Of a stretch of 44,312 bases of DNA, positions 6,943 through 12,644 are shown one piece after another. Made by a program: the position numbers and the translations under genes. The stretch is from the NCBI RefSeq assembly GCF_003857015.1, contig NZ_QGGF01000292.1, positions 1-44,312 on the forward strand. The letters run 5' to 3'. Position 1 is the stretch's first letter. Every line of letters begins with the position of its first letter. The notes beneath the pieces were generated by a model. That model had not been told where the DNA came from. It saw only the letters and a list, made by a program, of their open reading frames with translations, and did not search any database. The stretch comes from Micromonospora globispora. GTDB taxonomy: Bacteria; Actinomycetota; Actinomycetes; Mycobacteriales; Micromonosporaceae.

Positions 6943-7074
6943 ATGGTGGAGCCCGCCCGGACCCGGTCCCGCTTCGTCGCCTGATCGGTGCCGGACGCCC
7001 CGGTCCGCGACGGATTCGGAGCGCGTGGAGCCCGTGGTGTTGAATGTAGACAGTTGTGCTGCCGGAGGTGCCCT

Positions 7075-7518
7075 GTGCCAGAACTCTCCCTGCTGATCGA
7101 GCCGCAAACGGCGCTCCCCGCCGGCCGGATCGACGAGCTCACCGCGGGGCTCGCCGATGACCTCCGTACGGTGCGGGGCCTGCGCGTCGCGCACGCTCAG
7201 TCGCCGGCCGTCGACCACGGCAAGTCGCAGCAGGCCTGGGAGCTGGGGATGCTGGTGGTGGGTGGGCTCTTCTCGGCCACCACCATGCGTGCCCTGGCCC
7301 AGATCGCGGTCGCGTACGCAGACCGGATCAAGGCCCGCTCGATCAGGCTGCGCAACGGTGACCGGGAGTTCGTCATTACCGGGGAGACCCGGCTCGACCC
7401 GCGGGTGCTCCAGGAGTTGGCGCAGTTGCTGGGCGGTCCGCATGGCGGTCCCGACGCCACCACGACTCCCGCCCTACCCGCGCCTCGGGACCGCGGGAGC
7501 GACACCACCGGCAGCTGA
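7075..7518 (+). CDS. EACC1-type effector-associated constant component
   Basis: This small protein (147 residues) begins with a strand-helix segment (PELSLLIEPQTALPAGRIDE), then a hydrophobic helix region (ELGMLVVGGLFSATTMRALA, roughly residues 55-80), then SIRLRNGDREFVITGETRLD and a helix, with a disordered PAP-rich tail. This layout (a helix bundle followed by a beta hairpin ending LDP) matches effector-associated constant component 1, which in actinobacteria sits beside caspase or trypsin-like effectors of NTP-dependent conflict systems. The GTG start at 7075 has GGAGG 6-7 bases upstream. The stop lies 3 bases before the caspase fusion gene, so the two form an operon. The likely role is an adaptor or regulator of the caspase protein. 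Confidence 0.75.
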   Translation: MPELSLLIEPQTALPAGRIDELTAGLADDLRTVRGLRVAHAQSPAVDHGKSQQAWELGMLVVGGLFSATTMRALAQIAVAYADRIKARSIRLRNGDREFVITGETRLDPRVLQELAQLLGGPHGGPDATTTPALPAPRDRGSDTTGS

Positions 7519-7521
7519 GCC

Positions 7522-10500
7522 GTGGGCCAGCGACGGGCGCTGCTGATCGCCAACGACCGCTACATCGACCGGTCGTTGGCGGACCTTTACGCGCCCCGCG
7601 AGGAGGCCCGCGACCTGCGCAGCCTGCTGGCCGATCCGGACGTCGGCGCGTTCCACGAGACGTTGCTGCTGGAGAACGAGTCGAAGAGCTCCATCGAGCG
7701 AGCCATGGAGTCGATGCTCCGGGCGGCCGGGCCGGAGGACCTCGTCGTCCTCTACTTCTCCGGCCACGGTGTGCGCAGCAGCAAGCGGGGACGTCTCCAC
7801 CTGGCGGTGGCCAACACCGAGGTGGACCACCTCTCCTCGACCGCGATCTCCGCCTCCTTCGTCCGGGAGCTGCTCGACGAGTCCGACGCGGCCAGCTCGG
7901 TCATCCTGCTCGACTGCTGCTACAGCGGCGCGTTCGAGGGGCACGGCCTGAAGACGACGGACGACCTGGCCATCGACGGCGAGCTGAGCACCGGGTACGG
8001 CCGGTACGTCATCACCGCGACCAACTCGGTGGAGCGGGCCCGCGACGGAAGCCCGACCTCCGGGACTGCGTCCCGGCTGCGGTCGGCCTTCACCGAGACG
8101 ATCATCCAGGGGCTCGGCACGGGCGCCGCGGACATCACCGGGCAGGGCCGGATCACCCCGGACGACCTCTGGCGGTACGTGCACCTGGAGCTGCCGAAGC
8201 GCTCGGCGCAGACGCCGTGCCAGTTCGGCAGCGCCAGCGACGAGATCCACATCGCACTGTCCCGGGAGGGGCACCACCGGCAGCGGCGGCATCGGGACCA
8301 GCGGGAACCCCGCCTCGGCGACCTTCTGGGTCCGTTGGAGCCCGCCGACGACGTCAAGCTCTGCGCCACCGACTGGCGCCGGCGCGGACTGCTCAAGGTG
8401 CCGGTCGGCCGGGCGCAGCGGATCGACCAGCTCGCCGGTGAGCCGGTCTGGCTGGACCTGGCATCCTCGGACGGGCACCTGCTCCTGGTCGGCCGCGCCG
8501 GCACCGGCAAGACGACCCTGCTCCGCACCATCATCGGCGGCCTGGCGCTCACCCACTCCGACGACGAGGTGGCGTTCCACTGCCTGGAGTCGGGCGGGAA
8601 CTGGCTCGGGCCGATGCGCCGGCTGCCGCACGTCCGCGCGGTGCTCGGTGACGACGAGGTGGGCGAGGTGGGCAAGCTGCTCGACCGCTTGGAGCAGGAC
8701 GTCCTCGACCGCAAGCAGCTCTTCCGCCGGCACGAGCTGGAGTCGCCGTCGAGCCTGCGCGCCCGGCGGGCCGGCCTCGACGCCGGCCCCTGCCCGGACG
8801 TCTTCCTGGTGGTCGACCGCTGGCACGACTTCGCCACCCTGCTGCCCGACTTCACCTCCCGCGTGGTGGACCTCGCCAACAAGGGTCTCGGGTACGGGAT
8901 CCACGTCGTCATCCTCGAGCGCAGCTGGCGGGTGATCCCGGAGGATCTGCGTGAGCTGCCGCAGCTGCGGATCGAGACCCGGCTGTCCCAGCCACAGGAG
9001 TCGCTGGTCAGCCCCGACCAGGCGGCCCGCCTGCCGGTGAACATGCCGGGCTGGGCCATCCACGGCCGGCGTACCTTCCGCATCGCGCTTCCCTTCCTGT
9101 CCGGCGGCGAGGCCGAGGTGGAGACCGAGCCGGAGGCCGGGACGCCGGAGGCCGCCGCGTCAATGGTCTCCGTGATCGCCGAGGCATGGGGAACGACCTG
9201 GGTGACGGCCGAGCGCAGTCCCGCCCGTGCCGTCGCCGAGGAGCAGGTGGACGAAGCGGTCGCCGTGCTCGGTGTCCCGGACCGGGCGGCACTGTCGCGC
9301 CTCGAGGGGCGTCGGACCCCGCTCGGGCCCGACTACCTGCGGATGCCCGTCGGCGTCGACGCACGCGGGCGACCGGTGTTCCTCGACCTGAAGGAGCCGG
9401 CCCAGGGCGGCATGGGTCCGCACGGCCTGCTGGTGGGCGCGACCGGCTCCGGCAAGAGCGAGCTGCTCCGGACGATCGTCGTGGCCCTCGCCGCGCGCCA
9501 CTCGTCCGACGAGCTGAACATCGCCCTGGTCGACTTCAAGGGCGGCGCGACGTTCGGCCCGCTGACCGAGCTGCCGCACGTAAGCGCGCTGGTCACCAAC
9601 CTGTCGGAGGACTTGACGCTGGTCGACCGCCTGGCGCAGGCGCTCACCGGCGAGCTGCTCCGCCGCCAGGAGGTGCTGCGCGCCGGCAACCAGGCGAACC
9701 GGTGGGAGTACGAGCAGGCCCGGGCGGCCGGCGTCCCGCTGCCACCGCTGCCCACCCTGCTGGTCATCTGTGACGAGTTCGCGGAGCTGATGACGGTCAA
9801 CCCCGACTTCGTCGACGTGTTCCTGCAAATCGCCCGGGTCGGCCGCTCGCTCGGCGTGCACCTGCTGCTCGCCAGCCAGCGGCTGGAGGAGGGGAAGCTG
9901 CGCGGGCTGGACAGCGCCCTGTCGTACCGGATCGGACTGCGGACCTTCTCGGCGGTGGAGAGCCGGATCGCGCTCGGCGTGCCCGACGCCTACGAGCTGC
10001 CGAGTGCGCCGGGGCACGCGTACCTCAAGGCGGGCACGACGTTGACCCGGTTCCGGGCGACGTACGTCTCCGGGCCGCTCGCCCTCGACGAGGCCGACCC
10101 CGCTATCGCGGAGCCGGCGAAGCTGGCCGGGCGAAGCCTGCTCGACATCGTGGTGGAGGCGCTGCGCGGGCGGGCCCCGGCCGCTCACCCGATCTGGCTG
10201 CCGCCGCTGGGCGACCCGCCCAGCCTGGACGAACTCCTGCCGCCGCTGGCCCCGCATGCGACCCGGGGGTTCACCGTCAGCCAGGGTGGTGGCTCGCTGA
10301 CCGTGCCGGTCGGCCTGCTCGACAATCCGGTGGCGCAACGGCGGGAGCCGCTGCGGCTCGATCTGGCCGGGTCGGCCGGCCACGTCGCCGTCGTCGGTAC
10401 GGCGCGGTCCGGCAAGAGCACCCTGCTGTGCTCGCTGGTGGCCGCGCTGGCGTTGACCCACACGCCGCGCGAGGTGCAGTTCTTCTGCCTGGACCTGGGC

Positions 10501-11856
10501 GGCGGGACGCTGCGGAAACTGGCGGCGCTGCCGCACGTCTCCGGGGTGGCGGGTCGGCGTGACACCGAGGCGGTGCGGCGGACCGTGGCAGAGGTTTCCG
10601 CCGTCCTCGACGACCGCGAGGCCCGCTTCCCGGTGCACGGCGTCCACTCCATCGCCGACTATCGCCGGCGGCGCGCGGCCGGCGAGTTCGCCGACGACCC
10701 GTTCGGTGACGTGTTCCTCCTGGTCGACGGCTGGCAGACGGTGCGGCAGGAGGACGAGGAGCTGGCGGTGGCGATCAGCGGCATCGCGCAGCGGGGGCTC
10801 GCCTTCGGGGTGCACGTGATCCTCACCGCCTCCCGGTGGATGGACCTCCGCATCGGCCTGCGGGACCTGTTCGGCACCAAACTGGAGTTGCGGCTCGGCG
10901 ATCCGACCGACTCGGAGATCGACCGGCGAGCCGCGGCGCGGGTGCCGGTCTCGCCGGGGCGCGGACTGACCCCGGGGAAGCTGCACTTCCTGACCGCACT
11001 GTCCAGGGTGGACGGCCGGCACGGGGTCGACGATCTGGCGGAGGCGACCACCGCGCTGATTGACCGGGTGGCGCAGGCGTGGTCGGGGGAGCCGGCCCCG
11101 CCGGTGCGGCTGCTGCCGCTCCGGCTGTCGGTCACCGAGCTGGCCGAGCTGAGCGACCCGGCCGCGACGGGCCTGCCGATCGGCCTGGACGAGGCCGCCC
11201 TCGCTCCGGTCTACCTGGACCTGGACAGCGAACCGCACCTGACCGTCTTCGGTGACGCCGAGTGCGGCAAGAGCAACCTGCTCCGGCTGGTGATGCGCCA
11301 GCTCGTGGCCCGGCGTACGCCCGCGCAGGCCCGGCTGATGGTCGGCGACTACCGCCGGAGCCTGCTCGACGCGGTGCAGGGCGAGCACCTGTTGGGGTAC
11401 GCCCCCACGAGCCAGGTCTTCGCGCAGGGGCTGGCGTCGCTGCGGGAGGCGCTGGTGCAGCGGCTGCCGGGACCGGACGTGACCGCCGAGCAGCTGCGCA
11501 GCCGGAGCTGGTGGCAGGGCCCGGACGTCTACGTGCTGGTGGACGACTACGACCTGGTCGCCTCCAGCGGCAGCAACCCGCTCAACGCCCTGCACGAACT
11601 GCTGCCCCAGGCCCGGGACATCGGCCTGCACCTGATCATCGCCCGGCGGGTCGGCGGGGCCGCCCGGGCGCTCTACGAGCCGGTGCTGCAGCGGCTGCGG
11701 GAGGTGGACTCGCCGGGGCTGCTGATGTCCGGCAACCGGGAGGAGGGGGCGCTGCTGGGCGGGCTGCGGCCGCAGTCGATGCCGGCCGGCCGGGGCACCC
11801 TGGTATGCCGCCGCGACGGCGCCCGGGTGATTCAGACGGCCTGGTCGGAGCCCTGA
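7522..11856 (+). CDS. Caspase-like peptidase fused to four FtsK/EccC-type P-loop domains
   Basis: The product has 1444 residues. Residues 1 to about 250 form a caspase (C14) domain: MGQRRALLIANDRY, the catalytic His82 in YFSGHG and Cys133 in LLDCCYSG. Four P-loop domains follow, with Walker A motifs GRAGTGKT (324), GATGSGKS (639), GTARSGKS (959) and GDAECGKS (1244). The last three match EccC ATPase domains D1-D3 of type VII secretion: the 639 domain has VDFKGGATFG, Walker B LLVICDEFAEL (Asp751-Glu752) and SYRIGLRTFSAVESRIALGV. The 324 domain is an extra, D2-like copy. The other three domains lack the Walker B glutamate (VVDRW, LVDGW, LVDDY). The membrane helices of EccC are absent and no esx/ecc genes lie nearby, so secretion is unlikely; a cytoplasmic NTP-driven protease switch is inferred. 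Confidence 0.9.
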   Translation: MGQRRALLIANDRYIDRSLADLYAPREEARDLRSLLADPDVGAFHETLLLENESKSSIERAMESMLRAAGPEDLVVLYFSGHGVRSSKRGRLHLAVANTEVDHLSSTAISASFVRELLDESDAASSVILLDCCYSGAFEGHGLKTTDDLAIDGELSTGYGRYVITATNSVERARDGSPTSGTASRLRSAFTETIIQGLGTGAADITGQGRITPDDLWRYVHLELPKRSAQTPCQFGSASDEIHIALSREGHHRQRRHRDQREPRLGDLLGPLEPADDVKLCATDWRRRGLLKVPVGRAQRIDQLAGEPVWLDLASSDGHLLLVGRAGTGKTTLLRTIIGGLALTHSDDEVAFHCLESGGNWLGPMRRLPHVRAVLGDDEVGEVGKLLDRLEQDVLDRKQLFRRHELESPSSLRARRAGLDAGPCPDVFLVVDRWHDFATLLPDFTSRVVDLANKGLGYGIHVVILERSWRVIPEDLRELPQLRIETRLSQPQESLVSPDQAARLPVNMPGWAIHGRRTFRIALPFLSGGEAEVETEPEAGTPEAAASMVSVIAEAWGTTWVTAERSPARAVAEEQVDEAVAVLGVPDRAALSRLEGRRTPLGPDYLRMPVGVDARGRPVFLDLKEPAQGGMGPHGLLVGATGSGKSELLRTIVVALAARHSSDELNIALVDFKGGATFGPLTELPHVSALVTNLSEDLTLVDRLAQALTGELLRRQEVLRAGNQANRWEYEQARAAGVPLPPLPTLLVICDEFAELMTVNPDFVDVFLQIARVGRSLGVHLLLASQRLEEGKLRGLDSALSYRIGLRTFSAVESRIALGVPDAYELPSAPGHAYLKAGTTLTRFRATYVSGPLALDEADPAIAEPAKLAGRSLLDIVVEALRGRAPAAHPIWLPPLGDPPSLDELLPPLAPHATRGFTVSQGGGSLTVPVGLLDNPVAQRREPLRLDLAGSAGHVAVVGTARSGKSTLLCSLVAALALTHTPREVQFFCLDLGGGTLRKLAALPHVSGVAGRRDTEAVRRTVAEVSAVLDDREARFPVHGVHSIADYRRRRAAGEFADDPFGDVFLLVDGWQTVRQEDEELAVAISGIAQRGLAFGVHVILTASRWMDLRIGLRDLFGTKLELRLGDPTDSEIDRRAAARVPVSPGRGLTPGKLHFLTALSRVDGRHGVDDLAEATTALIDRVAQAWSGEPAPPVRLLPLRLSVTELAELSDPAATGLPIGLDEAALAPVYLDLDSEPHLTVFGDAECGKSNLLRLVMRQLVARRTPAQARLMVGDYRRSLLDAVQGEHLLGYAPTSQVFAQGLASLREALVQRLPGPDVTAEQLRSRSWWQGPDVYVLVDDYDLVASSGSNPLNALHELLPQARDIGLHLIIARRVGGAARALYEPVLQRLREVDSPGLLMSGNREEGALLGGLRPQSMPAGRGTLVCRRDGARVIQTAWSEP

Positions 11857-11871
11857 CCGGCGCCGGGGATC

Positions 11872-11918
11872 GTCAACTATCGGTTGACGTCAGCGGCGCG
11901 TCAACCTATGGTTGACGC
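11872..11918 (+). promoter_or_regulatory. Promoter embedded in two tandem operator palindromes
   Basis: Two 17-base palindromes, GTCAAC-TATCG-GTTGAC (11872-11888) and GTCAAC-CTATG-GTTGAC (11900-11916), stand 28 bases apart. The right half of the first supplies a -35 box TTGACG (11884-11889) and the second contains a -10 box TATGGT (11907-11912), 17 bases apart. Transcription would start at or next to the ATG at 11919, giving a leaderless mRNA. A dimeric repressor on both sites would block the promoter; the helix-turn-helix of the encoded protein is a candidate. Confidence 0.75.
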
Positions 11919-12644
11919 ATGACGGATCCCCTGCAGATCAGCAACCCGGTACGCCTCGACGAGCTGATCGAGGCCATCAAGAAGGTGCACCCCGACGCGC
12001 TCGACCAGCTCTCCGACGCGGTGATGGTGGCCGACCATCTCGGCGACGTCGCGGACCACCTGATCGGTCACTTCGTCGACCAGGCCCGCCGCTCCGGCGC
12101 GTCGTGGACCGAGATCGGCCGCAGCATGGGCGTCACCAAGCAGGCCGCCCAGAAGCGTTCCGCCGCCAAGGCCGAGACGGCGGCGGCGCTCGACCCCAAC
12201 GCCGGGTTCGGCCGCTTCACCGATCGGGCCCGGAACGTGGTGGTGTCCTCGCAGAACGAGGCCCGGGCCGCCGGCAACGCCGAGATCAGCCCCGAGCACC
12301 TGGTCCTGGGCCTGCTGGCCGAGCCGGAGGCGCTCGCCGCGAAGGCGATCGTGGCTCGGGGCGTACCCCTGGAGCGGGTGCGGGAGACGGTGGCCGCGGC
12401 CCTGCCTGCGGCGGTCGACCGGGTCCCCGACCTGATTCCCTACGACGCGCGCGGCAAGAAGGTCCTGGAGCTGACCTTCCGGGAGGCGCTGCGGCTCGGC
12501 CACAACTATGTCGGCACCGAGCACATCCTGCTCGCCCTGCTCGAGGAGGAGGACGGCAAGGGCGTCCTCGCCGATCTGGGCCTGGAGAAGGCGGCGGTGG
12601 AGGAAACCCTCGCCGCGGCGCTGGCCGAGGCCGCGCGGCGGTGA
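11919..12644 (+). CDS. HTH and Clp N-terminal (Clp_N) domain protein
   Basis: The 241-residue protein has an N-terminal helical region with a helix-turn-helix (SWTEIGRSMGVTKQAAQKRS, about residues 62-82), then two Clp_N-type repeats: FGRFTDRARNVVVSSQNEAR...ISPEHLVLGLLAEPEA and LTFREALRLGHNYVGTEHIL. Clp_N modules are the substrate- and adaptor-binding part of ClpC/ClpA; no AAA+ module follows, so it cannot unfold proteins itself. It may bind Clp substrates or mimic ClpC and also control its own promoter, since twin palindromes overlap that promoter. There is no Shine-Dalgarno, consistent with leaderless translation. It begins 62 bases after the caspase fusion gene on the same strand; a functional link is inferred only. 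Confidence 0.85.
   Translation: MTDPLQISNPVRLDELIEAIKKVHPDALDQLSDAVMVADHLGDVADHLIGHFVDQARRSGASWTEIGRSMGVTKQAAQKRSAAKAETAAALDPNAGFGRFTDRARNVVVSSQNEARAAGNAEISPEHLVLGLLAEPEALAAKAIVARGVPLERVRETVAAALPAAVDRVPDLIPYDARGKKVLELTFREALRLGHNYVGTEHILLALLEEEDGKGVLADLGLEKAAVEETLAAALAEAARR

Follow-up and report, generated by a model that had tools for sequence, protein, structure and literature searches.

The clpC2 gene of Micromonospora globispora and the association of its twin operators with a helix-turn-helix

The clpC2 locus

The window (the whole 44,312-nucleotide stretch of M. globispora DNA analysed here) carries at 11919-12644 a gene that is clpC2, a typical member of an actinobacterial family already described, preceded by two copies of an inverted repeat that contain its promoter. 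Upstream on the same strand is a caspase-EccC fusion gene (7522-11856), whose stop codon lies 62 bases before the clpC2 start; its caspase is of the EACC1-associated type (NF047832), and the EccC-like part is a type VII secretion protein with three ATPases (TIGR03924/TIGR03925). The interval 6988-11856 also takes in an EACC1-like gene, a weak match, ahead of the fusion. The features of the clpC2 locus are:

11872..11888, no strand assigned: upstream operator GTCAAC-N5-GTTGAC, the right half of which provides the -35 box
11884..11889, plus strand: -35 box TTGACG (promoter scan)
11900..11916, no strand assigned: downstream operator GTCAAC-N5-GTTGAC, the spacer of which provides the -10 box
11907..11912, plus strand: -10 box TATGGT, 17 bases 3' of the -35 box
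11919..12644, plus strand: clpC2, 241 aa, with a probable leaderless start at 11919 (PDB matches 9P2P, 8B9O, 8AD9 and 8ADA, all ClpC2)
11919..12134, plus strand: N-terminal dimerisation domain as in 8ADA, residues 1-72 (phmmer E 3.9e-32)
12105..12170, plus strand: putative helix-turn-helix, residues 63-84 (helices 63-70 and 74-84 of the predicted model)
12138-12170, plus strand: candidate recognition helix, residues 74-84 (predicted model)
12252..12404, plus strand: first Clp_N stretch (PF02861, E 1.2e-10)
12477..12623, plus strand: second Clp_N stretch (PF02861, E 7.5e-13)

An earlier note on this DNA had described the two palindromes, the promoter boxes with their 17-base gap and the position of the ATG, and the window sequence and the promoter scan agree with it base for base. 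Both palindromes have the longer form CGTCAAC-N5-GTTGACG. The A of the ATG (11919-11921) is the seventh base past the -10 box, a position compatible with a leaderless start. GTCAAC-N5-GTTGAC is matched twice in the window versus 0 times in 100 shuffles, and the two sites at clpC2 are the only exact N5 sites in the whole 6.67 Mb genome, where the backwards pattern is found once.

Residues 1-72 of the protein match 8ADA, the N-terminal domain of Rv2667 ClpC2, which is without homology to ClpC1, and the remainder matches the N-terminal domains of ClpC2 and ClpC1 (8AD9 and 9P2P among the matches). A full-length predicted model (mean pLDDT 82, with residues 84-96 below 50) contains helices 63-70 and 74-84, which we read as a helix-turn-helix (HTH); a prediction of the N-terminal domain alone was weak (mean pLDDT 65) and was left out in favour of the full-length model. 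Six residues of the candidate recognition helix (Q75, A76, A77, Q78, K79, R80) are invariant across 43 aligned sequences. Clp_N was the sole family found for the 241-aa protein in a Pfam search, which returned no HTH family and no AAA+ ATPase or protease domain, and the best 50 matches listed by a fold search were nearly all N-domains of ClpC or other Hsp100 proteins and are uninformative on the HTH. The 8ADA-like N-terminus, the C-terminal Clp_N pair lacking AAA+ and the operator doubled over the -35 and -10 boxes before the ORF are those of ClpC2; of a ClpC/ClpA unfoldase, which is defined by AAA+ ATPase domains, only Clp_N is present. The combination of an HTH with Clp_N modules noted earlier is borne out by two PF02861 stretches and by the predicted model. 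The tie that had been proposed between proteolysis and autoregulation holds for autoregulation, which is published for clpC2; the link to proteolysis is indirect, because neither an ATPase nor a protease domain is present in the protein, which mimics the domain of ClpC1 that binds drugs and substrates.

Conservation and census of the operator

The layout is conserved in the closest relatives, for which we took the best 80 of 543 confirmed in genome contigs, an uneven sample since it holds the closest ones. Palindromes ahead of homologs had been named beforehand as a check, and two sites matching at least 10 of 12 bases precede clpC2 in 80/80 of these best 80 of 543, with no homolog there lacking them; both are perfect in 58, the upstream site having 11-12 and the downstream site 10-12 of the 12 bases in every case. 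Among the same best 80 of 543 the sites are 28 bp apart in 53 loci and 29 bp apart in 27, the spacer between the -35 and -10 boxes is 17 in 53 and 18 in 27, the second site ends 2 nt before the ATG in 76 and 3 nt before it in 4, and the -35 box is TTGACG, TTGACA or TTGACT in all 80. A TA at the -10 position occurs in the downstream spacer of 79/80 and in the upstream spacer of 2/80 (best 80 of 543), and this asymmetry within otherwise symmetric repeats speaks independently for the promoter and for the direction in which it reads. The near-symmetric twin of the window also holds a minus-strand -35/-10 pair (11876-11904) that scores equal to the forward pair (9 of 12), which we treat as a by-product of the twin symmetry, given the forward-sense TA in only 2/80 upstream spacers. 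The suggestion that clpC2 represses itself through twin operators and starts leaderless is thus supported by analogy, the same being published for clpC2 (PMC10030653) and the layout being kept in 80/80 of the best of 543.

A genome search for the N-terminal domain and Clp_N led to a second locus in M. globispora (G000:C144:32300-33240, L103), where the HTH has a gene of its own (78 aa), which overlaps the start of a second gene that codes for two Clp_N stretches. Right ahead of the ATG of the HTH gene are two GTCAAC-N4-GTTGAC sites, and the genome has no other exact N4 sites; read from its sequence, the locus is a ClpC2 split over two genes, its operators having a 4-base rather than a 5-base spacer. 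A wider regulon was also considered for this genome. Allowing at most one mismatch gave 17 N5 and 9 N4 sites versus 11 and 4 for the backwards pattern, and judged from these counts nothing stands out beyond the two loci with exact twins.

To the census across genomes, a twin-site search contributed matches in 33 of 296 genomes of the phylum (backwards pattern, 1) and a search for a site followed by an ATG contributed matches in 101 of 246 genomes of the class (backwards pattern, 6 matches). Loci L106-L245 were drawn from the matches listed and examined, leaving out listed places in G393 and G502 and, from the twin-site results, G050:C105, G197, G256 and G287; the second M. globispora locus and sites with an inexact ATG-side operator (e.g. 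L107, L124, L125, L129) also stand outside the 140 distinct sites obtained. Among these matches listed, 119 of the 140 are paired, 27-29 bp upstream, with another site that has an equal spacer and matches at least 10 of 12 bases, and 105 of the 119 lead into an operon with a ClpC2-type HTH: the next gene is a fused HTH-Clp_N gene in 52 (all N5), an HTH gene that a Clp_N gene follows in 37 (all N4) and an HTH gene beside which no Clp_N gene was seen in 12 (11 N4, 1 N5); in 4 (all N5) the HTH is in a later frame of the operon, three of these being operons with a small membrane protein and the fourth a ClpC2 read from a different start. The 14 others comprise 4 sites at the outer edge of such arrays, read in the outward direction, 2 that face an HTH gene on the opposite strand (L179, confirmed; L196, judged from the few bases beyond the operator) and 8 that precede non-HTH genes, namely six beta-lactamase-family serine hydrolases, one alpha/beta hydrolase and one protein with a PEP-utiliser mobile domain (Pfam was run on one of the six serine hydrolases and on both single cases). 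No twin site among the matches listed leads to Clp_N without an HTH (0/119). Sites without a twin number 21 among the matches listed (1 before an HTH and Clp_N gene pair, 6 with an HTH in a later frame, 14 with neither), and we take most of them as chance or alternative reads. Viral contigs contain at least 120 stretches matching the twin-site pattern, which we judge to be mostly chance, the pattern having two wide gaps and the collection being very large.

The spacer follows the HTH. For the 105 HTH twin sites among the matches listed, N5 goes with Gln at the position of Gln78 in 56/57 and N4 with His in 48/48, the exception being L106, which combines N5 with His. In a tree of 102 HTH sequences the N4 and N5 groups split with support 100/100 and each includes genes with Clp_N partners; the tree was built from 62 columns, it places L106, whose branch is very long, with the N4 group, and the N4/N5 division is a single deep split and so does not represent many independent cases.

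Where Clp_N is not the neighbour, the HTH gene is followed by a serine hydrolase with a 4-base overlap (L188, L189, L190, L212), by an ABC transporter (L138, L139, and L107, where the ATG-side site is imperfect), by a GNAT-like gene after an N5 operator (L106/L260), or by no evident partner (L108, L146, L159, L214, L244). In three genomes (L252, L253, L254) the first gene after the N5 operator codes for a small membrane protein with the ending WLPSRD(G/E)..., and an overlapping gene of ~190 aa with an HTH comes next. Clp_N was found only in open frames of at least 828 aa, or not at all, in 11 of the 14 genomes with an HTH lacking a Clp_N neighbour; one of these 11 (G307) is 72% complete and has no Clp_N match at all, and the other 3 of the 14 (G268, G470, G355) have smaller Clp_N proteins. 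Six genomes (L177, L178, L180, L184, L186, L187) carry an N4 twin operator directly on the beta-lactamase-family serine hydrolase, and elsewhere an HTH and Clp_N gene pair with N4 twins, of which the ATG-side one matches 11/12 bases; from this arrangement, hydrolase and distant pair look like a small two-locus regulon of one genus.

Three further loci were observed beside these. The arrangement of the HTH and GNAT-type genes at L106 resembles a toxin-antitoxin pair. At L117 (L259:2192-2611) N5 twins precede a 140-aa protein in which ClpC2-like first residues are joined to a PEP-utiliser mobile domain, and a normal ClpC2 is present in that genome as well, at L208. Mycobacteriophage Myrna gp251 (L383:1468-2175), with a counterpart in phage Phabba, is a protein of ~235 aa without an ATPase that resembles a free ClpC1-type N-terminal domain, has a Clp_N ~51% identical to that of the window protein, and is a possible decoy.

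Operator reading and the ligand pocket

ClpC2 is reported to be a repressor of its own gene (Taylor et al., 2023; PMC10030653). The operator CGTCAAC-n5-GTTGACG lies there 1-2 nt ahead of the clpC2 ORF, over putative -35 and -10 boxes, with a second upstream copy in many of the actinobacteria analysed, and the positions of operator and promoter suggest leaderless clpC2 transcripts. In EMSA, reporter and knockout experiments on the proteins of M. smegmatis and Mtb, mycobacterial ClpC2 binds the operator and represses its own promoter; Mtb ClpC2 dimerises via its N-terminal domain, and cyclomarin A, which ClpC2 soaks up, relieves repression (PMC10030653). A later report describes induction by a cyclomarin and none by ecumicin or ilamycin (PMC12913811, 2026).

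Taylor et al. assign DNA reading to Clp_N, through a helix that carries two arginines, R188 and R192 in the window protein, the N-terminus merely dimerising. The assignment comes from the conserved, positive character of the arginine helix and from a double mutant with weaker DNA binding and clpC2 mRNA raised 2.0-fold, and cyclomarin binds beside this region and hinders DNA binding (PMC10030653); the arginines are also kept in our alignment (R188 in 43/43, R192 in 42/43 sequences). However, the same twin operators are borne by HTH genes without a Clp_N neighbour (the 12/119 among the matches listed), 11 of 14 genomes of this kind show no small Clp_N protein, and spacing tracks the HTH clade rather than the presence of Clp_N. 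In this set the operator is thus found with an HTH where Clp_N is missing and never the other way round, so that the census points to the HTH as reader. Moreover, ClpC1 has a similar charge pattern and binds DNA with little sequence specificity, and the dimer mutant R57A gives a greater rise in mRNA (4.6-fold) than the arginine double mutant (PMC10030653). Because ClpC1 itself binds with so little specificity, the arginine mutant may act via non-specific contacts; an HTH model must explain its effect in this way or by a changed conformation. Reading by Clp_N is in our view improbable, and the sequence comparison suggests, as a point new relative to the published model, that the operator goes with the HTH. 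The N-terminal crystal covers residues 4-72 after proteolysis, and the text of PMC10030653 does not use the term helix-turn-helix; with the recognition helix predicted at 74-84, that helix is missing from the crystal, and the comparison suggests that the part which reads DNA was not in the crystallised fragment.

Two other explanations concern the role of ClpC2 itself. Some other regulator might read the palindromes, with ClpC2 downstream by chance, and binding by the window protein is indeed a prediction; yet EMSA shows mycobacterial ClpC2 binding to this very sequence, the protein represses its own promoter (PMC10030653), and both of the exact N5 sites of the genome are at clpC2, which makes this explanation very improbable. 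Alternatively, ClpC2 might be a functional partner of the caspase-EccC gene. The earlier note was right that clpC2 directly follows the fusion gene, on the same strand and with a gap of 62 bases, but the caspase gene did not prove a meaningful neighbour: an EccC-like gene is upstream of clpC2 in only 2/80 loci (best 80 of 543, 6 of them with less than 3 kb of upstream DNA), and clpC2 has a promoter of its own. A partnership is hardly credible, and the caspase-EccC gene appears to be an incidental neighbour.

The reading we hold to be highly probable is that clpC2 encodes an autorepressor, that its HTH reads the twin operators and that its Clp_N pair is a decoy sensor. ClpC2 would dimerise through its N-terminal domain and place the adjoining HTH (residues 63-84) on each GTCAAC-N5-GTTGAC palindrome, two dimers on two sites covering the -35 and -10 boxes and switching the leaderless promoter off. 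The C-terminal Clp_N pair would act as a copy of the ClpC1 N-terminal domain; filled with a peptide antibiotic that targets ClpC1, or possibly with unfolded protein, it would take the repressor off the DNA, and the derepressed gene would yield more decoy protein. We infer the operation of the published mechanism in M. globispora, the HTH as reader and the nature of the ligand from the comparisons given here.

The pocket bears on the ligand. Cyclomarin contacts in Mtb ClpC2 are Phe96, Phe172, Glu181 and Gln94 (PMC10030653). In the 43 aligned sequences, which include the window protein, Phe97 and Glu184 are kept in 43/43, the position of Mtb Gln94 (Ala95 here) has Gln in 25, Ala in 9 and others in 9, and that of Mtb Phe172 (Tyr175 here) has Tyr in 25 and Phe in 18; M. 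globispora ClpC1 has Phe at the position matching Tyr175. The F80Y substitution weakens the effect of cyclomarin on ClpC1. This mutant of ClpC1, in which Tyr occupies the corresponding position, has been crystallised with cyclomarin A (3WDE, a fold-search match). Tyr175 in place of Phe172 raises the prospect that the natural ligand of the window ClpC2 may be other than cyclomarin.

More broadly, we think it rather likely that ClpC2 is one branch of a family of actinobacterial leaderless self-repressors with twin operators, in which the HTH reads GTCAAC/GTTGAC, its clade sets the spacing and the partner is exchangeable (fused Clp_N, Clp_N in a second gene, beta-lactamase-family serine hydrolase, ABC transporter, small membrane protein). 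As Clp_N does for ClpC1, some of these partners may act as decoys for antibiotic targets or guard them.

Comparison with known systems

The published operator and autorepression features of clpC2 make the feature in the window one more clpC2, so that the reading is right and already known. As one more family member the gene alone adds little, and the comparison matters more: it is a cheap test of a published mechanism, that of a drug-sensing repressor relevant to ClpC1-directed antibiotics. Added here are evidence on the DNA-reading domain, the wider family and the presence in M. globispora itself of a two-gene version. For the two-gene N4 version and for the operator at HTH-only genes we found no report in the open-licence literature, which is weak evidence of absence.

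The nearest known system is mycobacterial ClpC2 (Rv2667 and its M. smegmatis counterpart), which the window gene equals in domain order, operator sequence, doubling of the operator and overlap with the -35 and -10 boxes, as well as in the 2-nt gap to the ATG and the probable leaderless start; it differs at the cyclomarin contact, Phe172 in Mtb being Tyr175 here. RelI antitoxins have an HTH region akin to that of ClpC2 by HHpred, and the HTH in ClpC2 is remarked on there (PMC13284704); the window protein matches the corresponding entry 9SDC at E 0.00064. Unlike the window gene, RelI codes for 85 aa and has the RelS toxin as partner, and PMC13284704 reports no inverted repeats upstream of it. 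With the N-terminal domain of ClpC1 the window protein shares the Clp_N fold and its pocket for peptide antibiotics; ClpC1 is an AAA+ unfoldase and the large Clp_N genes of the M. globispora genome have no exact operators, whereas the window protein lacks the ATPase domain and carries the predicted HTH.
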